Source of the DNA: Candidatus Caenarcanum bioreactoricola
GTDB lineage: Bacteria; Cyanobacteriota; Vampirovibrionia; Caenarcaniphilales; Caenarcanaceae
NCBI GenBank assembly: GCA_001899385.1
Contig: MOYB01000004.1
Span: 19,597-59,036, forward strand
Length of the DNA: 39,440 nt
Direction: 5' to 3'
Position numbers and translations under genes: made by a program. Every line of letters starts with the position of its first letter. Position 1 is the stretch's first letter. The notes under the pieces are model-generated. The model saw only the letters and a program-made list of their open reading frames with translations. It was not told the DNA's origin and ran no database searches. This document shows, in pieces, positions 1 through 39,440 of this stretch.

Positions 1-58
1 GGGAGGGGTGAGGGCTTATTAGGAGGTTTGGGGAAGATGATATTTTCAAAAATTTTAA
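1..58. repeat. Left terminal copy of G-rich inverted repeat
   Basis: The first 58 bases match the reverse complement of the last 57 bases: the outer 20 are identical, then come two short indels and one substitution, then 21 identical bases ending in AATTTTAA. The outer half has G runs (GGG, GGGG, GGG, GGGG), very unusual in this AT-rich DNA; the inner half is AT-rich. It is probably a dispersed genomic repeat at which the assembly stopped. Reading frame 1 is open from base 1 to a TAG at 82-84, but the peptide is not recognisable. Confidence 0.85.
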
Positions 59-2082: not shown

Positions 2083-2922
2083 TTAATATAAATCTTCATA
2101 AGCAATTTTTATAACTTTTTTTATCCAAGTTTCAAGATTAGGATTAATAAAATGACCTCTTTGAGGATATATCAAATGTGCTAGGAACTCAATATTACCT
2201 GATGCTCCTAGAATAGGCGAAAAATTCAAACCTTTTAAATCAAGTCCTGCTCGGTAAATTGAGTGTATAAATTCTAAAAGTACTTCAAAATGGATTTCAG
2301 GATTTCTAATAACTCCACCTCTTGCAACCTTATTTTTACCTGCTTCAAATTGAGGTTTTATTAATACTACCATTTGTGTTAAATCTGGACCTGCACTTAA
2401 CTTTTGAATAGCAGGAAGAAGCTTTATAACTGAAATAAAACTAACGTCAATAACAATAAAAGAAGCTTTTTCATCATCTTCTTCATATAAATTTTCAGAT
2501 AAAAGATATCGAATATTAGTTTTTTCTATACATTTAACTTTTTCATTTTTTCTTAAAGTCCAGTCTAATTGACCATAACCAGTATCTATTGCATATATTT
2601 TTTTTGCACCTTTTTGCAATAAACAATCTGTAAATCCACCGGTTGAGGCTCCAACATCCATACATACTAAATCTTTTACAGAAAGATCAAAGACTTCAAG
2701 GGCTTTTTGTAATTTATATCCACCTCTACTAACAAAGATTTTGCCATCTCCTATAACTTTTATATTATCTGCTGTAGGATTTACTTCAATACCAACTCTT
2801 TTTACTGTTTTATTATTAACTAATACAATACCTAATTTAATAGCTTTCTCTACTTGAGAAACATTTGAAAAATAATTTTCAATTAAATATTCAGAAAGAC
2901 TTTGTTTAGTTTGTAAATTCAT
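2083..2922 (-). CDS. tlyA: TlyA family rRNA (cytidine-2'-O)-methyltransferase
   Basis: An S4 RNA-binding domain (about residues 1-65) is followed by an FtsJ-like Rossmann methyltransferase domain. The SAM-binding motif reads MDVGASTGGFTDCLL, and the SRGGYKLQKAL linker is typical of the family. TlyA enzymes methylate ribose 2'-OH groups of cytidines in 16S and/or 23S rRNA; older annotations call them hemolysin A. Length (279 aa) is slightly above the usual 250-270. It is transcribed towards secY, ending 3 nt away, and is divergent from ftsW across a 76-bp gap containing TATAAT-like boxes. Which rRNA sites are modified cannot be told from sequence. Confidence 0.93.
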   Translation of the reverse strand: MNLQTKQSLSEYLIENYFSNVSQVEKAIKLGIVLVNNKTVKRVGIEVNPTADNIKVIGDGKIFVSRGGYKLQKALEVFDLSVKDLVCMDVGASTGGFTDCLLQKGAKKIYAIDTGYGQLDWTLRKNEKVKCIEKTNIRYLLSENLYEEDDEKASFIVIDVSFISVIKLLPAIQKLSAGPDLTQMVVLIKPQFEAGKNKVARGGVIRNPEIHFEVLLEFIHSIYRAGLDLKGLNFSPILGASGNIEFLAHLIYPQRGHFINPNLETWIKKVIKIAYEDLY

Positions 2923-2998
2923 AAATTAATCATAAGTCAAGAATTTTAAATTTGAATTATAATAAGTTTACGATACCATATTATAGAAATTTATTATA

Positions 2999-4129
2999 GT
3001 GGAAACATCATTAAAATCTTCAATTCAGATATTTTCACACAGAATAAAATCTACGCTTCAAAATGCAGATAAGATTTTTATTTTTGCAGTATTAGCATTA
3101 ATTATCTTTGGACTTTTTATGCTTTTAAGTGTTTCTAGTTATGAATCAGAAAAATTTAATAATTCCGCTTATAGTCTATTTTTAAATCAGATTTTTGCAA
3201 TTTGTATAGCAATTATAACTTTTTGTTTAGGTATAACTATAAATCCTCAAAGATTTAAAGAACTAACTCCTATATTAGTAATTTTAGCTTTATTATCTTT
3301 AATACTTCTTAATTTTTCACCTTTAGGTTTAACTGCAGGTGGTGCAGAAAGATGGTTAAATCTAGGAATCTTTAGTTTTCAACCTTCAGAATTTGCAAAA
3401 ATAGCAGTACTTGCTCTTATGGCAGATGCAGTGTGTAGAGGCAATTGGAACAGTCCACCAGTAATTCTAAGATTACTTTTATGTGGATTAATAGCATTTT
3501 TAATTTATAAAGAGCCTGATTTAGGAAGTGCATTGCTTATTTTTATACTTTGTGGCTTTTTTCTTTTTATAAGAGGCATGAATTTAATAATAGTTCTTTG
3601 TTCTGGATTTTTATTAAGTACTATTGTTTTCTGGGTTATAAATAATAATACTTATCAAAACGACCGTATTAAAGGCTGGTTAAACCCACAAGACGATCCT
3701 TTGGGTATTGGCTATAATATACTCCAATCTTATTATGCGATTGCTGAGGGTGGATTTTTAGGAGTAGGCTATGGAAATTCTTTTTACAAATTAGGTTATT
3801 TGCCTGTTAGTTATGCTGATTTTATTTTCTCAATAATGTGTGAAGAATTAGGGATTTTAGCACCAATAATAATAATTTCTTTATATTCTGTAATTCTTTG
3901 GAAAGGAATAAACGCTTCAATTCAAGTAAAAGATAATTTTATGAAATATTTATCTTTAGGAATAATTTTTGTAATGATTTCAGAAGCAATCTTAAATTTA
4001 GCTGGAGTATGTGGAATATTGCCTATTACTGGCACTCCTTTGCCTTTTGTAAGCTATGGAAAAACCTCTCTTATTGTAAATGGCTTTTTATTAGGTTTAT
4101 TAATAAATCTTTTATATAACAAAAAATAA
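2999..4129 (+). CDS. ftsW: FtsW/RodA/SpoVE family peptidoglycan glycosyltransferase
   Basis: This SEDS-family polytopic membrane protein polymerises peptidoglycan from lipid II in the divisome or elongasome. Diagnostic stretches are QPSEFAKIA, the RIKGWLNPQDDPLG loop, QSYYAIAEGGFLGVGYGNS, YLPVSYADFIFSIMCEELG, and the C-terminal TPLPFVSYGKTSL. The YLP..(D)FIF..EE.G pattern resembles FtsW more than RodA, but the distinction is not certain. The start is a GTG at 2999; no in-frame ATG occurs before the first membrane helix. A TATTAT box at 2979-2984 would give a leader of only a few bases. The last base of its stop codon is the discriminator position of the convergent tRNA-Gly. Confidence 0.92.
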   Translation: METSLKSSIQIFSHRIKSTLQNADKIFIFAVLALIIFGLFMLLSVSSYESEKFNNSAYSLFLNQIFAICIAIITFCLGITINPQRFKELTPILVILALLSLILLNFSPLGLTAGGAERWLNLGIFSFQPSEFAKIAVLALMADAVCRGNWNSPPVILRLLLCGLIAFLIYKEPDLGSALLIFILCGFFLFIRGMNLIIVLCSGFLLSTIVFWVINNNTYQNDRIKGWLNPQDDPLGIGYNILQSYYAIAEGGFLGVGYGNSFYKLGYLPVSYADFIFSIMCEELGILAPIIIISLYSVILWKGINASIQVKDNFMKYLSLGIIFVMISEAILNLAGVCGILPITGTPLPFVSYGKTSLIVNGFLLGLLINLLYNKK

Positions 4130-4200
4130 GCGGACGATGGGACTCGAACCCACGACGTTCAGCTTGGAAGGCTGACATTCTACCACTGAATTACATCCGC
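4129..4200 (-). tRNA. tRNA-Gly (anticodon UCC)
   Basis: The minus strand folds as a full cloverleaf. The acceptor stem GCGGATG pairs with CGTCCGC (one G-U), the anticodon loop CTTCCAA gives anticodon UCC, and the T arm reads GTGGGTTCGAGTCCCAT. The discriminator base is U, usual for glycine tRNAs, and lies in the ftsW stop codon at 4129. The 3' CCA is not encoded, so it must be added by CCA-adding enzyme. It lies 49 nt downstream of the gltB stop on the same strand. Confidence 0.96.
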
Positions 4201-4249: not shown

Positions 4250-7200
4250 CTAAGAAATTGCTTCTACTTTTTTAAATTTTAAAATTTCTAAACTAAAATC
4301 TTCTAAAAGTTTTTTTGCTAAACTACTTCCTGTATATTCTAAATGTTTTTCAATTAAAGTTTTAATAGTAATATTATCAAATTCTTCAAGATTTTTTATA
4401 CATACTGAATCAGAGTTTATTCGCTTTGGACCTACGTTTTTTTTGTCATAAATATAAGCAGTACCTCCTGTCATACCTGCCCCAAAATTATTACCTATTT
4501 CACCTAAAATTAAAATATGTCCTCTGATCATATATTCACAACCATGTTCTCCTATTCCTTCTACAACTGCACAAGCTCCGCTATTCCGCACAGCAAATCT
4601 TTCTCCTGCTATACCTGCTACAAATAATTCCCCACCAGTTGCACCATACAAGACAGTATTACCTATTACTACATGTTCATTACTTTGTTCTTTAATAGAG
4701 GAGAAAGGACTTATTGCAATCAAACCTCCATTCATACTTTTAGCAACATAATCATTTGCTTGTCCTTCAAGATAAAGGTTTAATCCATTAACACAAAAAG
4801 CCCCAAAACTTTGCCCTGCAGTGCCTGTAAAATTAAGTTTAATTTCAGAGTCTTTTAGTCCATCATTTCCAAATCTTTTAACTATTTCATGACTTATTTC
4901 TGCGCCAACTGTTCTATGTACATTTTTAAGTTTATAATTCCCTTCAAAACTTTTTTTCTTTTCAAGGGCATCTACAACATCACCAATTACTTGTTCATCA
5001 TAAGGAATTTTGATTATAGATCTAAAAGCTGTACATTTTAAAGCTCTTCCACTTTTTACAAGATCTGTTCTAAGTAAATTTGAAATATTTAAATTCTTAA
5101 GCTTTTTATCTGATTCTTTAATATTTGATATTAAGAGATCACTTCTTCCTATTATTTCATCAAGAGATATATAACCCATTTCAGCAAGTATTTCTCTTAT
5201 TTCTCTTGCAATATATCTTAAATAAGTCATCACAAACTCAACTTCACCTTTATATTTTGCTCTAAGTTCTGAGTTTTGTGTTGCAATACCTACTGGGCAA
5301 GTATTAAGATGACATTTTCTATCCATACAACAACCACAGGCAACCATTAAAGCTGTCCCAAAACCATATTCTTCAGCCCCAAGCAATGCAGAAATTATTA
5401 TATCTCTAGCTGTTTTAAGTCCACCATCAACTCTTATTTTAACTTTATCTCTCAAGTCATTCATAATAAGCGCTTGTTGTGTTTCAGCGAGTCCTAATTC
5501 TATAGGTCCTCCTGTATGCATTATAGAAGAAAGTCCTGCGGCACCTGTTCCACCATCAAAACCAGAAATTTTTATTATATCTGCAAAAGCTTTTACTACT
5601 CCAGAAGCAATAGTACCTATTCCATTTTCAGAAGTTAATTTAACTATGACTTTTGCTTGAGGATTTATCATTTTTAAATCATAAATTAATTGTGCTAAGT
5701 CTTCTATTGAATAAATATCATGATGTGGTGGTGGAGAAATCAAGTCCATACCTGCTTTTGCATAACGTAATGAAGCTATATATGTATCTACTTTTTTCGC
5801 CGGTAAATGCCCACCTTCACCAGGTTTTGCGCCTTGAGAAACTTTTATTTCAATTTCTTCTGCCGAATTCAAATATTCAGGAGTTACGCCAAATCGTCCA
5901 GATGCTATTTGTTTAATTTTGCTATTTTTTATGGTTTTATATCTTAAAGCATCTTCGCCACCTTCTCCGCTATCTGAAAGTGCACCAAGCCTATTAAATG
6001 CTTCTGAAATGGTTTCATGAGCTTCTTTGCTTAAAGCTCCTATAGACATTGCTGAAGCAACAAATCTTTTAAAAATTTCATTTTCTTCTTCTACTTGATT
6101 TATATCTATAGAACTTTTATCACTTTTAATATCTAAAAGATCTCTTATATTACAAGGTTTATTAGCATAAGCAAATTTTACAAAATTTTTATATTCATCC
6201 CAATTCTTTTCACGAACTGCTTTTTGAAGAGATCTTACTGTTTGAGGATTCCATGAATGAAACTCTCCATCTTTCACTTGTCTAAATTCACCAAGACTTT
6301 TAATAATGGGATTTTCGCTTTTAAATGCTATTTCATATCTTTCTAAAATTTCTTCTTCTATATCTTCTAATTCTAATCCTCCAATTTGAGAAGTAGTACC
6401 TTTAAAATATTTATTTATTACTTTCTCTGAAATTCCAACAGGTTCAAACAGTGCAGAATTTCTATAACTACGTACTGTTGAAATTCCCATTTTAGCCATG
6501 ATCTTTAATAAACCAGAATTCATAGCTTTTCTATAGTTCATAATAGCCATATTAAAATCAAGATTTATTTCTTGACATATATTTTTAATAAGCTGAACAC
6601 TAAGATAAGGATTTACAAGTGTTGCACCATAAGCTAAAAGAAAAGCAAAACTATGAGTATCACTAACTTCACCAGTATCCGCTATTATACTAAACTTACC
6701 TCTAACTCCTTCACTAATACCTTTAGTATTAAGACAAGCAATTGCTAATCCCATAGGAATAGGAATTCTATTTTCTGAAATTTCACGATCAGATAATACT
6801 ATTGTTTCAACTTTTTCTTGAAGTGCTTGCATTAATTCATTTTCAAGTTCATTTAATCCTGCTTCTAATCCTTTATTTTTATCAAAAGAACATTCCAAAA
6901 TTTTTAATCTTTTACCAAAGTGATTAATAAGAGTTTCTAATTCATGATCAAAAATAAGAGAAGTTTCTAAAGAAAACATATGTACATTTTCAGGATCTTC
7001 TTTAAGAAAATTCCCATGTTTACCAATATAAGTACGAAGAGACATTACTTTTTTTTCTCTTATAGGATCTATTGCTGGATTTGTAACCTGTGCAAATTTC
7101 TGTTTAAAATAAGAATAAAAGAGTTTAGGTTTCTTAGATAAAATAGAAAGAGGAATATCACTCCCCATTGAATAAATTAATTCAGTGCCTTTTTCAATCA

Positions 7201-8572
7201 TAGTTTTAAGCACCATTTCAGCTTGATCTTGATCTAATCCAAAAAATATTCTTTCTCGTGTAATATCTTTAGTTTCAAGCTCTAGATTTTCTTTTTCAGC
7301 TTTAAATTTAGCAGAATTTTCATCAAGCCATTTTTTATATTCTTTGCCTTCTATTAATTTATCAACTATTTCATCTGAAAAATAAATCTTTCCTGTTCTT
7401 GTATCAATAGAAATTTTATCTCCAGGAGCAAGTCGTCCTTTTTTGATTATTTCTTCTTGAGGTATATCTATAACACCTACTTCAGAAGATAATATAACTT
7501 TATCTTTAGTAATCAAATATCTAGCAGGTCTAAGACCATTTCGATCAAGTTTACCGCCTACGATTTCACCATCAGTAAAAGCAATTGCAGCAGGACCATC
7601 CCAACTTTCCATTCCATAAGAAAAATATTCATAAAAAGCTTTTTCTTCAGGGCTAAGATTTTCATCATTTTCCCAAGCTTTAGGTATAAGCATATTTGAT
7701 GCAACAAAAGGATCTAGTCCTGATCTAATAAGAAACTCCAAGACATTATCTAAAGAAGCAGAATCACTATCTTCATCATTAACAAGAGGGAATATGTCTT
7801 CACAATCAGCTCCCCAAACTTCTTTTATATCAGCGATTTTAGCTTTTATAAAATTCCTATTTGCATTAATAGTATTTATTTCGCCATTATGAGCAAGCAT
7901 TCTAAATGGGTGTGCAAATTTCCAAGTAGGAGAGGTATTTGTAGAATATCTTTGATGAAATAAAGCAATTGCAGTTTCATAATCAGGATCTTGTAAATCT
8001 TTATAAAAATGTCCAACTCGAGGAGCAGTGATTAAGCCTTTATAGACTATTGTTTTTGAAGAAAAAGAAGCAATATAAAAATTTTTATATTCAGTTTTAA
8101 GGCTTAACTTTTCAAGTTTTTTTCTTAAAATAAATAAAGCTTTTTCATAATCAAGACATTCAACATTTTCTTTTGAAATAAAACATTGCCAAAGAGCAGG
8201 TTTAGTTTTTTCAGCAATTACACCTAATTCTTCATAATTTACAGGAATTTCTCTCCACGCAATAACTTTAAATTTATTATTTATTATTTCATTAATTTCT
8301 TTTTTAATTTCTTCTTGTTTATGATTAGGCAAAAACATTACACCTATAGCAAGGTTAGCATTAGAAATACTTTGTTTTAATACTTTTTCAAAAAATTTAT
8401 AAGGGATTTGGGTTAAAATGCCAGCACCATCGCCAGTTTTACCATCAGCACTAACCGCCCCTCTGTGATTGAGATTAGACAAGCCTTCAAGAGCAGATTT
8501 TACAATTTCATGGCTTTTTTCACCTTTTATATTAACGATAAAACCTACACCACAAGAATCTTTTTCTTTCAT
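4250..8572 (-). CDS. gltB: Glutamate synthase, large subunit (GltB-type)
   Basis: This enzyme makes two glutamates from glutamine and 2-oxoglutarate, the second step of GS-GOGAT ammonium assimilation. A class II glutamine amidotransferase domain starts at Cys7 (after a six-residue propeptide, KDS-CGVGF), followed by the central domain, the FMN-binding synthase barrel, a 3Fe-4S cysteine cluster near residue 1077 (CGCCMDRKCHLNTCPVG), and the C-terminal beta-helix with glycine-rich repeats. At 1440 aa it is near full length for the family. No gltD small subunit is present, so the electron donor (ferredoxin or a distant GltD) is unknown. Its promoter segment is duplicated 700 bp upstream, on the far side of a HEPN/MNT pair. 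Confidence 0.97.
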   Translation of the reverse strand: MKEKDSCGVGFIVNIKGEKSHEIVKSALEGLSNLNHRGAVSADGKTGDGAGILTQIPYKFFEKVLKQSISNANLAIGVMFLPNHKQEEIKKEINEIINNKFKVIAWREIPVNYEELGVIAEKTKPALWQCFISKENVECLDYEKALFILRKKLEKLSLKTEYKNFYIASFSSKTIVYKGLITAPRVGHFYKDLQDPDYETAIALFHQRYSTNTSPTWKFAHPFRMLAHNGEINTINANRNFIKAKIADIKEVWGADCEDIFPLVNDEDSDSASLDNVLEFLIRSGLDPFVASNMLIPKAWENDENLSPEEKAFYEYFSYGMESWDGPAAIAFTDGEIVGGKLDRNGLRPARYLITKDKVILSSEVGVIDIPQEEIIKKGRLAPGDKISIDTRTGKIYFSDEIVDKLIEGKEYKKWLDENSAKFKAEKENLELETKDITRERIFFGLDQDQAEMVLKTMIEKGTELIYSMGSDIPLSILSKKPKLFYSYFKQKFAQVTNPAIDPIREKKVMSLRTYIGKHGNFLKEDPENVHMFSLETSLIFDHELETLINHFGKRLKILECSFDKNKGLEAGLNELENELMQALQEKVETIVLSDREISENRIPIPMGLAIACLNTKGISEGVRGKFSIIADTGEVSDTHSFAFLLAYGATLVNPYLSVQLIKNICQEINLDFNMAIMNYRKAMNSGLLKIMAKMGISTVRSYRNSALFEPVGISEKVINKYFKGTTSQIGGLELEDIEEEILERYEIAFKSENPIIKSLGEFRQVKDGEFHSWNPQTVRSLQKAVREKNWDEYKNFVKFAYANKPCNIRDLLDIKSDKSSIDINQVEEENEIFKRFVASAMSIGALSKEAHETISEAFNRLGALSDSGEGGEDALRYKTIKNSKIKQIASGRFGVTPEYLNSAEEIEIKVSQGAKPGEGGHLPAKKVDTYIASLRYAKAGMDLISPPPHHDIYSIEDLAQLIYDLKMINPQAKVIVKLTSENGIGTIASGVVKAFADIIKISGFDGGTGAAGLSSIMHTGGPIELGLAETQQALIMNDLRDKVKIRVDGGLKTARDIIISALLGAEEYGFGTALMVACGCCMDRKCHLNTCPVGIATQNSELRAKYKGEVEFVMTYLRYIAREIREILAEMGYISLDEIIGRSDLLISNIKESDKKLKNLNISNLLRTDLVKSGRALKCTAFRSIIKIPYDEQVIGDVVDALEKKKSFEGNYKLKNVHRTVGAEISHEIVKRFGNDGLKDSEIKLNFTGTAGQSFGAFCVNGLNLYLEGQANDYVAKSMNGGLIAISPFSSIKEQSNEHVVIGNTVLYGATGGELFVAGIAGERFAVRNSGACAVVEGIGEHGCEYMIRGHILILGEIGNNFGAGMTGGTAYIYDKKNVGPKRINSDSVCIKNLEEFDNITIKTLIEKHLEYTGSSLAKKLLEDFSLEILKFKKVEAIS

Positions 8573-8610
8573 TATGATTATTATAATTTTAACTTATAAC
8601 TCTTCTCTTT

Positions 8611-8648
8611 AAAGCATGATAAGAGTAATTTCAACTATTATAACAAAA
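8611..8648. repeat. Direct repeat copy 1, carries gltB promoter
   Basis: These 38 bases recur without any mismatch at 9311-9348. Read on the minus strand, the copy contains a consensus -10 box TATAAT (8642-8637) that fits a transcription start about 55-60 nt before the gltB ATG. No good -35 box is seen. The two copies bracket the HepT/MntA pair and share no extended similarity outside the 38 bases. Confidence 0.9.
8637..8642 (-). promoter_or_regulatory. -10 box of probable gltB promoter
   Basis: A perfect TATAAT on the minus strand lies 65 nt before the gltB start codon, inside direct repeat copy 1. The -35 region is AT-rich without a recognisable TTGACA. An identical box sits in copy 2 upstream of the MntA-like gene, so both minus-strand genes appear to use the same promoter sequence. 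Confidence 0.5.
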
Positions 8649-8663
8649 TTTTAAAAGAAAAAA

Positions 8664-9011
8664 TTAATTTTCATTTTTTTTATAAATCATACTTATTTGT
8701 TCTTTTAATAGAGGAAGTTCATCATTTGCAATTTCCCAAACAGTTTCTAAATTTACTGTTCCATATTCATGAATCACTTTATTTCGCGTTGTAATAATTT
8801 TTCTCCAAGGAATATAAGAATATTTTTCTTTTATATTATCTGGTAATATTTTTGAAGCTTCTCCTAAAATTTCAAGATTTCTAATAACTGCATCTATAAC
8901 CATTTCATTATTTTCAAAATCTTCAAAAGTTAAATTTTCTATATATTTTAAAATTTTATTTATACTATCAAGAATATCTTCAAGAATTTTTAAATAAGAT
9001 TTTTTAGACAT
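8664..9011 (-). CDS. hepT: HepT-like ribonuclease toxin (HEPN, DUF86)
   Basis: This is a small, mostly helical HEPN-domain protein of the DUF86/HepT family; such proteins act as RNases and are toxins of HepT/MntA type modules. The catalytic RX4HXY motif is intact: Arg76-NKVI-His81-Glu-Tyr83, followed by Gly84. In characterised systems the partner MntA inactivates HepT by adding AMP to the motif tyrosine, which is present here. It is the second gene of a two-gene operon, overlapping the upstream mntA-like gene by 8 nt. The 115-aa length is standard. The toxin role is inferred from family and pairing. Confidence 0.9.
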   Translation of the reverse strand: MSKKSYLKILEDILDSINKILKYIENLTFEDFENNEMVIDAVIRNLEILGEASKILPDNIKEKYSYIPWRKIITTRNKVIHEYGTVNLETVWEIANDELPLLKEQISMIYKKNEN

Positions 9012-9294
9012 TAACTAAATCTCCTTGAATATATTTTATAAACTTAGATTCAACTGCTTTTATAGTTAAAACATCTACTTTAATCTGAAAAGTTTCTTCT
9101 AAAAAATCACATAAATCTATAAAAGCAAATCCGAGAGGTTTTTCTAATTTAACTATTAAATCTAAATCACTTTCAGGAGTTTGTTCATTTCGAGCATACG
9201 AACCAAAAATTTGAATATTAACAACTCCATATTTTTCTTTTAAAATTAATTTGATTTCTCTTAGCTTTTCTTTAATTTCTTCTAATGTTTTCAT
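9004..9294 (-). CDS. mntA: MntA-like minimal nucleotidyltransferase antitoxin
   Basis: A minimal nucleotidyltransferase with the GSX10DXD-type active site: Gly31-Ser32, then Asp43 and Asp45 in ESDLDLIV. Proteins of this type neutralise HepT toxins by AMPylation. At 96 aa it is the compact form expected. It precedes hepT with an 8-nt overlap, the usual antitoxin-first order. A -10 box TATAAT (9342-9337) in direct repeat copy 2 lies 43 nt upstream, and this promoter sequence is identical to that of gltB. Confidence 0.9.
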   Translation of the reverse strand: MKTLEEIKEKLREIKLILKEKYGVVNIQIFGSYARNEQTPESDLDLIVKLEKPLGFAFIDLCDFLEETFQIKVDVLTIKAVESKFIKYIQGDLVNV

Positions 9295-9310
9295 ATCTTT
9301 ATTTTATCAT

Positions 9311-9348
9311 AAAGCATGATAAGAGTAATTTCAACTATTATAACAAAA
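9311..9348. repeat. Direct repeat copy 2 flanking the HepT/MntA pair
   Basis: A perfect copy of 8611-8648, exactly 700 bp away in the same orientation. It carries the TATAAT (minus strand, 9342-9337) that can drive mntA-hepT. Its plus-strand edge overlaps the possible -35 of the divergent HEPN/MNT operon. It is too long to be an ordinary transposition target duplication. Confidence 0.9.
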
Positions 9349-9389: not shown

Positions 9390-9821
9390 ATGACTAATAT
9401 AAATTATATAAAATTAAAAAATTCTTTAAAACGACTAGAAGAAAGATATAAAGATTATAAAATAGCTTTAACACGTAAAGAACTCTTAATCTCTGACAAA
9501 GAATCCATAAAAGAGTCTTGTATACAACGTTTTGAAGTGTGTTTTGATACAACTTGGAAGCATTTAAAAAAATATTTACAAGAAGAAATAGGATTAATAG
9601 ATATTCCTCTTGGACCTAATCCTATATTTAAAAGTGCATTTGCTGCAAAAGTTATAAATAATCCGACTCAATGGATTGAATTTAATATTAGAAGAGGAAA
9701 CACAAGTCATGATTATTCTGGCGAAAAAGCAGATAATACTTTTGAAATAATAGCTGATTTTATTAATGAAGCAATAGTTTTATATGAAACAATGAGTGGA
9801 GAAAAATGGGAAAATGAATAA
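9390..9821 (+). CDS. HEPN-domain protein, HI0074 (nucleotidyltransferase substrate-binding) family
   Basis: A helical HEPN protein of the HI0074 family, which pairs with minimal nucleotidyltransferases. The RX4HXY motif is intact as Arg102-GNTS-His107-Asp-Tyr109. The 143-aa length is normal. It is the first gene of a two-gene operon with an MNT gene whose start lies just before this stop. Unlike the neighbouring HepT/MntA pair it has the toxin-like gene first, and it belongs to a different HEPN subfamily. The role is most likely the toxin of a HEPN/MNT module; an older view calls it the substrate-binding subunit of a two-chain nucleotidyltransferase. Confidence 0.88.
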   Translation: MTNINYIKLKNSLKRLEERYKDYKIALTRKELLISDKESIKESCIQRFEVCFDTTWKHLKKYLQEEIGLIDIPLGPNPIFKSAFAAKVINNPTQWIEFNIRRGNTSHDYSGEKADNTFEIIADFINEAIVLYETMSGEKWENE

Positions 9822-10125
9822 AATTATTAATAATATTGATATTGAGCCCGAATATTTAGAAATAATATATTCAATATTTGCTAATTATCTTCCATATAAA
9901 GAAATTTGGGCATATGGTTCTCGTGTTAAAAAAACAGCAAATAAAAGATCCGATCTTGATTGTGTTGTTTTTAATGCAACGGATTTAGAAATTTACAATG
10001 CAAAAGAGGCTCTTGACAACAGTGAAATACCATTTATTATTCAATTACTTCGTTGGGAAAAACTTCCTGAGGATTTTAAAATTAATATAAAAGAAAAATA
10101 TTTTATTCTCCAAAAAGAAAAGTAA
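9814..10125 (+). CDS. Minimal nucleotidyltransferase, partner of HI0074-type HEPN
   Basis: The nucleotidyltransferase motif is Gly35-Ser36 followed by Asp47 and Asp49 in RSDLDCVV. The frame is open from a GTG at 9796, but the ATG at 9814 is preferred because GGAG (9798-9801) lies 12 nt ahead of it; this gives 103 aa and an 8-nt overlap with the HEPN gene. Together they form a complete HEPN/MNT pair. By family analogy it modifies and silences the HEPN partner, which is inference for this subfamily. Confidence 0.88.
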   Translation: MNKIINNIDIEPEYLEIIYSIFANYLPYKEIWAYGSRVKKTANKRSDLDCVVFNATDLEIYNAKEALDNSEIPFIIQLLRWEKLPEDFKINIKEKYFILQKEK

Positions 10126-10157: not shown

Positions 10158-10982
10158 ATGTTTAAGAATCTTAAAGAAAATTTTGTTTATTTAATCTTTA
10201 AAATTATTCTTATTTTATTTTTATTATTATCTATTTCTTTTTTCTTATATATAGGATTTAAAGGTTATAAAGATATTTTTAATTTAAGTTTTTTCTCTAA
10301 TAAAAATCTAATTTATTCTTTAATAAGTACAATACAAATTATAATTTTATCTTTGGGAATTGCTTGTCCTATAGGTATCTTTGCGGGTATTTATTTTAGT
10401 GAATATGCAGACAATAATAATAAAATAATAAAGTTCTTTCGTTTATGCATACAAATACTTAATGGTATCCCTTCTATTGTTCTAGGACTTTTTGGTTTAG
10501 CTTTTTTTGTTTTTGCTCTAGGTTTTAAACAAAGCCTTTTATCAGCATCTCTAACTCTAAGTATAATGATATTACCTTTAATTATTAAAACAACAGAAGA
10601 AAGTTTTCGAACAATACCAAATGCTTTAAAAGAAGCAAGCTTGGCTTTAGGAGCAACTGAAACAGAGACTGTTTTTAGAGTATTATTACCTTATGCAAAA
10701 CAAGGTATATTTACTGGAATAATACTTTGTATTGGCAGAGTTATTTCTGAATCTGCAATCTTAATATTAACTGCTGGAGGCAGCTTGTCAATACTTTCAA
10801 GATTCTTTTCAAATAATTATCCGTATATCTTGGCTGATTCAGGAAGAAGTTTAGCCTTGCATCTTTATTATCAAAAATTTAGCTATAATCAAACAGAATC
10901 GGCTTTTACAACTGCATTAATTCTATTATCTTTAATTTTATTATTAAATTCAATTGTAATTTTAATTAAATCAAAGAAATAA
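10158..10982 (+). CDS. pstA: PstA-like phosphate ABC transporter permease
   Basis: An inner-membrane permease with about six helices and the ABC permease EAA loop (EASLALGATETETVFRVLLP). The GIPSIVLGLFGLAFFV and RVISESAILILTAGG segments are typical of PstA. PstA with PstC forms the channel for phosphate uptake, powered by PstB and fed by PstS. None of those partners is in the window, so this is an isolated subunit gene unless they lie elsewhere. It starts 32 nt after the MNT gene and overlaps the convergent mnmG by 12 nt at their 3' ends. Confidence 0.87.
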   Translation: MFKNLKENFVYLIFKIILILFLLLSISFFLYIGFKGYKDIFNLSFFSNKNLIYSLISTIQIIILSLGIACPIGIFAGIYFSEYADNNNKIIKFFRLCIQILNGIPSIVLGLFGLAFFVFALGFKQSLLSASLTLSIMILPLIIKTTEESFRTIPNALKEASLALGATETETVFRVLLPYAKQGIFTGIILCIGRVISESAILILTAGGSLSILSRFFSNNYPYILADSGRSLALHLYYQKFSYNQTESAFTTALILLSLILLLNSIVILIKSKK

Positions 10983-12776
10983 TAAAAGGACTGTAATATC
11001 TGCTTGCCTTACTCCATCTATTTTACTTGCCTGCCCTAAAGTTGCAGGTTTTATTTTATTTAATTTTTCTCTTGCCTCTTTTGATAAATGCAAAATATTA
11101 TTATAATCAAAATTTTCAGGTATTTTTTTATCATAAGAATCCGCCATTTTATCTATTTGCTCTCTTTGTCTTTGTACATATCCACTATATTTTATTTCCG
11201 TTTCTATCTCAAATCTTGGAACATTTAAACTCCCAGTCCTATCTCTTTCTAAAATTTGATCTATTTTTTCATAATTTGTCTCTGTCCTAGCCAAAAGCTC
11301 ATACAAAGAAATTTTAGAGTTTTCTGTATTTATTTTATGTCCTTTTAATAATGCTATTTCATTTTCAAATCTTTGCATTTTTTCTTCAAAAACCTTCCAC
11401 CTAAAGTCATTTACTAATCCGAATTTTCGACCAGTGGGGGTTAATCGTCTATCTGCATTTTCTTGTCGTAAATAAAGTCTATATTCTGAACGAGAAGTCA
11501 TCATTCTATAAGGCTCTATAATGTCTTTTATTAATAAATCATCTATTAAAGTCCCTATATAACTTTCAGATCGTTTAAGTATAAATTCTTCTTTAGATAA
11601 AATTTTCAAAGCAGCGTTTGCTCCTGCAACTAAGCCCTGACATGCAGCTTCTTCATAGCCACTTGTACCAAGAACTTGACCTGCAGAATAAAATCCTTCT
11701 AAAATCTTTGATTCAAGAGTATGTCTAAATTGTATTGGCTTTAAAAAATCATATTCAATTGCGTATGCTGGTCTAATTATTTCAACGTTTTCAAGTCCTT
11801 TTATAGTTTGTAATAATTCTCTTTGTAAATTTACTGGCAAACTTGTAGATGCACCTTGTACATATATTTCATTAGTCTCTAAACTCTCTGGTTCAAGAAA
11901 TAAAAGATGCGATTCTTTATCTGGGAATTTTACAATTTTATCTTCAAGAGAAGGACAATATCTAGGACCTATACTTTTTATAAATCCTCCATATAATGCT
12001 GTTTTATCAAGATTTTTTCTTATAAAATCATAGGTTTCTTTAGTAGTACGCACTGCATGACAAGGAATCTGAGGTCTTATCGGTCTATCTGGCAAAAATG
12101 AAAAGAACTTTAATTCATCATCTCCTAAATGCTTATCTAATCCTTCAAAATTTACACTGTTTTTATTTATTCTTGCAGGAGTACCTGTTTTAAGCCTGCC
12201 AATATCAAAACCTATTTCTTGCAAACATTTACTTAAGCCCTTAGAAGCTGGCTCTGAAGAGCGCCCCGAATCAAAAGAAATTCCTCCACAATAAATTTTA
12301 CCTTCTAAAAAAGTACCTGAAGTTAAAATCACTGCCTTTGAATAAATTTTTTCTTCTAAAGTAGTTTCTATACCTATAACATGTCCTTTTTCAACTAAAA
12401 TTTTATTTACATTAGCTTGATACAAAGAAAGATTTTCAAGTTTTTGGAATTCAGAGCGCATCCATCTAGAATATTTATATTTATCAATTTGTGCACGCAA
12501 AGAATGAACTGCTACTCCTCTCGAAGCATTTAAAGTTTTCATTTGAAGATAACAAGCATCTCCTGCTAAACCCATGATTCCACCTAAAGCATCAATTTCT
12601 TTTACAATATGAGATTTTGCAGGACCGCCCAAAGAAGGATTGCAAGGCATCCATGCAATAGTATCAATATTCATTCCAATTAAAAGAGTTTTTACTCCTA
12701 ATCTTGCGCAGGAATAAGCCGCTTCACAACCTGCATGACCACATCCTATTACTATTACATCAAAGTTTAAATTCAT
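10971..12776 (-). CDS. mnmG: tRNA uridine-5-carboxymethylaminomethyl modification enzyme MnmG (GidA)
   Basis: This FAD protein works with MnmE to put the cmnm5 group on wobble uridine 34 of several tRNAs. It has the N-terminal dinucleotide-binding GCGHAGCEAA, MPCNPSLGGPAK, the substrate and FAD loop around GTFLEGKI, TGTPARI, and the late GTSGYEEAACQGLVAGANAA. At 601 aa it is marginally short for the family; the C-terminal helical domain is present. It is the second gene of a minus-strand pair, 7 nt after the YqhA-like gene. The last four codons overlap the pstA 3' end. Confidence 0.97.
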   Translation of the reverse strand: MNLNFDVIVIGCGHAGCEAAYSCARLGVKTLLIGMNIDTIAWMPCNPSLGGPAKSHIVKEIDALGGIMGLAGDACYLQMKTLNASRGVAVHSLRAQIDKYKYSRWMRSEFQKLENLSLYQANVNKILVEKGHVIGIETTLEEKIYSKAVILTSGTFLEGKIYCGGISFDSGRSSEPASKGLSKCLQEIGFDIGRLKTGTPARINKNSVNFEGLDKHLGDDELKFFSFLPDRPIRPQIPCHAVRTTKETYDFIRKNLDKTALYGGFIKSIGPRYCPSLEDKIVKFPDKESHLLFLEPESLETNEIYVQGASTSLPVNLQRELLQTIKGLENVEIIRPAYAIEYDFLKPIQFRHTLESKILEGFYSAGQVLGTSGYEEAACQGLVAGANAALKILSKEEFILKRSESYIGTLIDDLLIKDIIEPYRMMTSRSEYRLYLRQENADRRLTPTGRKFGLVNDFRWKVFEEKMQRFENEIALLKGHKINTENSKISLYELLARTETNYEKIDQILERDRTGSLNVPRFEIETEIKYSGYVQRQREQIDKMADSYDKKIPENFDYNNILHLSKEAREKLNKIKPATLGQASKIDGVRQADITVLLLFL

Positions 12777-39383: not shown

Positions 39384-39440
39384 TTAAAATTTTTGAAAAT
39401 ATCATCCCCAAAAACCCCCTAATAAGCCCTCACCCCTCCC
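39384..39440. repeat. Right terminal copy of G-rich inverted repeat
   Basis: The reverse complement of this copy matches window positions 1-58: the outer 20 bases are identical, the inner match ends at AATTTTAA. It differs by a T insertion and a 3-nt deletion in the middle. On the minus strand it has G runs GGG, GGGG, GGG, GGGGG and GGGG, enough for a G-quadruplex. Confidence 0.85.

Follow-up and report, generated by a model that had tools for sequence, protein, structure and literature searches.

How chromosomal toxin-antitoxin pairs spread without a carrier element is an open question, for which direct repeats left as scars around a pair would provide a countable signature. The locus described here raises this question in compact form, as a mntA-hepT pair is located between two identical copies of a segment that lies upstream of gltB. 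The window (i.e., the whole stretch of DNA analyzed, 39,440 nt) corresponds to C34:19597-59036 of the genome G000, which has a size of 1.84 Mb in 67 contigs. The relevant features are listed below.

4250..8572, minus strand: gltB, large subunit of glutamate synthase, 1440 aa; the neighbor with the duplicated promoter segment
8610..8648, minus strand: direct repeat copy 1 (downstream), gltB promoter region; exact match to 9310-9348
8649..9309, minus strand: insert, bare mntA-hepT cassette, 661 bp
8664..9011, minus strand: hepT, predicted HEPN RNase toxin, HepT family, 115 aa (PF01934; RX4HXY = RNKVIHEY)
9004..9294, minus strand: mntA, predicted minimal nucleotidyltransferase antitoxin, 96 aa (PF01909; GSX10DXD = GSYARNEQTPESDLD)
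9310..9348, minus strand: direct repeat copy 2 (upstream), in front of mntA; exact match to 8610-8648
9390..9821, plus strand: second pair, HEPN-type subunit, 143 aa (PF08780 / HI0074; RX4HXY motif)
9796..10125, plus strand: second pair, minimal nucleotidyltransferase, 109 aa (PF01909; GSX10DXD motif)
10158..10982, plus strand: pstA, phosphate ABC transporter permease; right-hand neighbor of both pairs

Toxin-antitoxin pairs between gltB and pstA

The repeated segment, TAAAGCATGATAAGAGTAATTTCAACTATTATAACAAAA, is identical in its two copies, which are spaced by exactly 700 bp. A first-pass annotation had reported this identity and spacing correctly but gave the length as 38 bases rather than 39 nt. 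When mismatches are allowed, the match extends to 44 nt at 95% identity; the similarity ends abruptly at both edges of the 39 nt. The intervening 661 bp, from 15 bp 5′ of the mntA ATG to 15 bp past the hepT stop, contain hepT and mntA and no other gene, as had been noted. The genome-wide copy search proposed in that annotation recovered just these two copies in G000 at up to three mismatches, and a dispersed repeat family was rejected on this basis. Although the 67-contig genome is probably a draft or metagenome assembly, an artefact or chance is an extremely improbable source of the arrangement: the locus lies inside a 149-kb contig, ordinary reads are longer than a 39-nt repeat, the same architecture is found in unrelated genomes, and the number of exact 39-nt repeats within 5 kb expected by chance anywhere in a 1.84-Mb genome of such composition is ~4e-11.

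The space between copy 2 and pstA is filled by a second HEPN/MNT pair, which was absent from the earlier annotation. In this pair, the HEPN gene comes first, and the pair is divergent from (i.e., back to back with) mntA-hepT, such that two toxin-antitoxin pairs are located between gltB and pstA. No bracketing repeat was seen around the second pair (9390-10125). Both pairs carry RX4HXY and GSX10DXD, the defining motifs of class I HEPN/MNT pairs (PMC7641770). With PF01934 or PF08780 beside PF01909 and both motifs present, the two pairs are predicted to belong to the HepT/MntA type VII class I systems, in which polyadenylylation serves to neutralize the RNase toxin. The mntA-hepT pair shares with the type VII system (PMC7641770) the combination of PF01934 and PF01909, the two motifs, the antitoxin gene in first position, and the overlap of the genes, and the mntA product matches PDB 1wot. 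The window sequences differ in being distant from the characterized pairs; the hepT/mntA pair scores below the NCBIfam type VII equivalog cut-offs. In an Rfam scan of the region, no regulatory RNA was detected, the sole match being a tRNA at 4129-4200. No MntA relatives were found on viral contigs.

The minus strand of each copy holds the extended -10 element TGTTATAAT (8645-8637 and 9345-9337), which bears out the earlier claim that gltB and mntA are preceded by an identical TATAAT. In the downstream copy, this element is located ~65 nt ahead of the gltB ATG (8572), and in the upstream copy ~43 nt ahead of the mntA ATG (9294). Because complete extended -10 elements are infrequent (~0.09 per kb, counting both strands, over 726 kb of G000), the 39-nt copy likely contains a genuine promoter. 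Scanned with a simple sigma-70 consensus, the region yields promoter-like sites no more often than shuffles, and such a scan is uninformative in DNA this AT-rich.

Bracketed HEPN/MNT pairs in other genomes

To gather HEPN/MNT pairs, 382 genomes belonging to the class and 386 belonging to the phylum were used, and about 120 loci were taken from them; the survey set comprised 123 pairs in 112 loci of Vampirovibrionia and Cyanobacteria. Bracketing was scored as the best left-right match of the 400-bp flanks (match +1, mismatch -2). A score of at least 14 was obtained for 27 of the 123 pairs and at least 18 for 18 pairs. With the right flank reversed, one of the 123 pairs reached 14 and none reached 18 (maximum 16). 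Among random same-size intervals of the same loci, 13 of 1120 scored at least 18, mostly due to tandem gene repeats or low-complexity families, and the difference from the 18/123 pairs is significant (Fisher p=1.7e-11). When tandem HEPN/MNT arrays (L126, L174, and L198) and dispersed repeats (L190 and L119) were taken out by hand, 13 of ~115 pairs remained bracketed (p=7.6e-8), while ~89% of the pairs have no bracketing repeat. The bracket of L190 was rejected as an insertion scar given its many copies, which indicate a dispersed repeat, and the same likely applies to L119.

In the 12 further bracketed loci, the repeats are 21-110 nt in length and different in sequence at each locus, and every repeat corresponds to the end, start, or promoter of the adjoining host gene. 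These loci include the following.

L134: 57 nt, pntB 3′ end
L113: 54 nt, start of a glycosyltransferase-9 gene
L128: 41 nt, 3′ end of a glycosyltransferase-4 gene
L125: 77 nt, apparent DNA methyltransferase start (from reading of the sequence)
L204: 110 nt, proS start and upstream region
L111: 31 nt, ssb promoter region with TGTTATAAT, the same element as in the window
L183: glmS 3′ end

The pair is co-directional with the gene whose border is repeated in 11 of the 13 loci, and the bracketed inserts (652-926 bp) contain little besides the pair. Such insertions at different genes of unrelated relatives suggest that small pairs move without a recognizable mobility enzyme.

The 3′ end of glmS is a classical insertion point of integrative elements, and direct repeats at gene 3′ ends resemble the att sites of such elements in that the repeat restores the end of a host gene. 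A 785-bp segment in the same class that is bracketed by a 28-nt apparent tRNA-gene repeat (L095; see below) also fits this pattern. The pair may thus have been moved by a conventional mobile element, whether an integrase-type element flanked by att repeats or a transposon that duplicates its target site. We consider this unlikely, as no transposase or integrase was found in or beside the inserts examined, the sites are unrelated, and both the sequence and the length of the repeats vary by locus. Terminal inverted repeats of the inserts, that of the window included, are no longer than in random segments, and no common end motif is evident among the inserts. Compared with integrative elements, the inserts are small (0.65-0.9 kb), lack an integrase, and are often located at promoters or gene starts. 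Variable and very long target duplications are produced by insertion sequences of the IS1549/IS1634 type, from which the present cases differ in having neither transposase nor terminal inverted repeats.

At L128 (G044:C1), three copies of the glycosyltransferase-4 gene end are present (8690-8814, 9515-9563, and 11261-11393). This pattern suggests two nested insertions, one of a HEPN/MNT pair and the other of an older 1.8-kb segment with unknown genes, and thus an insertion hot spot.

An empty site at proS

The proS locus L204 of G403 could be compared with a congener, G411. In G411, positions 1461-1870 align with the left flank and repeat of L204 (96%), and positions 1761-2170 with the repeat and right flank (88%). 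These two alignments overlap by exactly the 110-nt repeat with no gap, such that G411 has an empty site with a single copy and no extra bases. The gene-side copy of L204 differs from the empty-site copy by one base and the other copy by seven, and one of the changes in the latter interrupts the proS reading frame with a stop codon. Such a stop codon and the extra changes would be expected of a decaying duplicate, and L204 is a clear case of insertion with a long target duplication. In a third congener, G601, a related pair is found behind the same proS repeat, together with extra DNA. A pooled search of seven more sites yielded no second perfect empty site, although information on pntB alleles was gained; the comparisons were uninformative for L190, where the repeats are dispersed, for L167, where the orthologous site is itself filled, and for L162, where synteny is lost.

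These results also bear on a regulatory alternative, in which local duplication spread the 39-bp segment as a common operator or promoter and no pair was inserted. The presence of an extended -10 in each copy, before a co-directional gene, is compatible with this scenario, but the other brackets are unlike in sequence, some of them are coding gene ends rather than regulatory regions, and one bracketed pair has an empty site in a congener. Regulatory spread is therefore very unlikely.

Because the window repeat has two copies only, unrelated brackets are found elsewhere, and the proS site exists in a single-copy empty form, insertion upstream of gltB is the best reading of the locus. From these sequence comparisons, mntA-hepT is probably a recent insertion in the gltB promoter region that left the 39-bp target on both sides. 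Such an event would leave a direct repeat of the target flanking the cassette; gltB would retain its own extended -10 promoter through the downstream copy, and mntA-hepT would be read from the identical upstream copy, with the cassette bringing just 15 bp of upstream DNA. At the molecular level, a long staggered break may have been filled in with capture of the cassette, or a donor fragment already bearing the gene end may have been captured by one-sided homologous recombination. We infer this molecular step, an origin of the window repeat by the same kind of event as at the other bracketed loci, and the function of both copies as promoters.

Source of the second copy

The first-pass annotation had proposed that the pair was inserted upstream of gltB while the promoter was copied. 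The two-copy repeat and the similar brackets elsewhere support the insertion, but the additional promoter may be a donor's copy. In this alternative of homology-assisted capture, a donor pair with its gene end or promoter recombined on one side and was joined non-homologously on the other, and the two copies represent donor and recipient alleles. We regard it as a serious possibility, if a little short of an even one. Since insertion is common to this alternative and to target duplication, and only the source of the second copy differs, the probabilities that we assign to the two overlap.

Comparing the two copies of a repeat separates target duplication from homologous capture, and several loci with diverged copies point to capture. 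At L134, the gene copy continues past the repeat as CTTTTAAAATAAGACA, which is similar to CTTCTAAAATAAGACA, the native pntB tail of G014; the tail of the other copy, TTATTGAAGTAA, is the native pntB tail of G057. Both tails encode LLK-stop with different codons, and the two copies resemble two different relatives. All three differences between the L208 copies are synonymous, the 77-nt coding repeat of L125 has many synonymous changes, and L183 has two diverged glmS ends that have only the last conserved codons in common. At L134, L208, and L183, the pair most likely arrived attached to the gene end of a donor. On the other hand, the copies, empty site, and insert boundaries of L204 fit a simple duplication in which the non-functional copy then decayed, and the window copies are identical over the 39 nt with similarity breaking off sharply on both sides. 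This identity in itself does not discriminate a target duplication from a donor-borne copy, and the window pair may have come with a donor's copy of the promoter.

Search for an empty gltB site

No empty gltB site was found in the family, in the named genome collection (one distant record), or in G002. The family of the source organism is sparsely sampled, with four relatives compared, and gltB is present within the family only in G002 (69% identical over the first 302 residues). In that genome, gltB lies in another neighborhood, with a methionyl-tRNA synthetase gene upstream; the upstream region is not alignable and contains neither the pair nor the repeat. In three of the four family relatives, one pst permease gene directly adjoins another. 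In the window, pstA stands alone, and the strongest match for a second permease, apparently pstC, is located on G000:C1 at ~103.7-104.5 kb. The position of this match on another contig indicates that the gltB-pstA neighborhood has itself been rearranged. Due to this rearrangement and the sparse sampling of the family, an empty gltB site could not be demonstrated.

Relationship to known insertion systems

Insertion with long target duplication has been described for restriction-modification genes in Helicobacter pylori and other organisms, with target duplications on the order of 100 bp (Nobusato 2000 and Furuta 2010, as reviewed in PMC3874152; PMC1643837). The statement in the first-pass annotation that 38 bp is too long for a standard target-site duplication is fair, but such reports indicate that long target duplications do occur (PMC3874152; PMC1643837). 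The insert in the window has several features of this type of insertion, namely, a long bracket, a locus-specific target sequence, and no mobility gene or terminal inverted repeats; the transposase and terminal inverted repeats of a classical transposon are absent. The restriction-modification insertions likewise involve a small selfish module with no mobility gene of its own, long target repeats of variable length, and a relative with a single-copy empty site (here the proS case, G403 vs. G411). The differences are that the cargo here is a type VII pair of ~0.65 kb, that the repeats are 21-110 nt, that several loci have diverged alleles, and that the hosts belong to the phylum Cyanobacteriota. 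In the openly accessible literature searched, we found no report that HEPN/MNT or other toxin-antitoxin pairs insert with a long target duplication. The interpretation in the first-pass annotation is largely right; the mechanism is of an already described type, which the present cases extend to minimal toxin-antitoxin pairs and in which target duplication and homologous capture probably each have a share.

Scars of this kind mark recent insertions and fix the exact ends of the moving unit, which includes little beyond the two genes. As the same signature has been reported for restriction-modification genes, genome comparison, as well as work in laboratory strains capable of natural transformation, can test whether addiction-type modules spread by a common route.

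VapBC pairs and other bracketed segments

VapBC pairs were included as a negative control, which failed, since four of ~29 loci (L235, L239, L241, and L245, in cyanobacteria) are also bracketed, with repeats of 48-193 nt. Bracketing is not specific to HEPN/MNT pairs. We tentatively propose, as a generalization that we hold to be more doubtful than probable, that minimal toxin-antitoxin pairs (HEPN/MNT and some VapBC) may be mobile units that insert at promoters and gene ends, with direct repeats of 20-190 bp of host sequence and without a mobility gene of their own; the host promoter or gene end would often be preserved, and in the window the promoter would be lent to the cassette.

Elsewhere in the 726 kb of G000 that were examined, most long repeats belong to low-complexity families or represent genes copied in tandem. 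A two-copy direct repeat of 49 nt is located at C34 67906/68671 (L045 8870-8918 and 9635-9683), with the copies 765 bp apart; the repeated sequence resembles a small gene's transcription terminator, and an orphan 105-aa ORF with no Pfam match lies between the copies. The L095 segment (2218-3031; G014:C26), whose repeat copies are 785 bp apart, contains a single unknown 185-aa gene and no integrase; its bracket is like that of an integrated element, though the segment is very small. Inverted copies of one sequence are found at the two ends of the window (1-58 and 39384-39440), with matches of 29 nt (97%) and 23 nt (100%). At G000:C1:79197-80979, near-identical HicA/HicB pairs are arranged in tandem with a 469-bp unit, and the 37-nt repeat of this array is probably their promoter.
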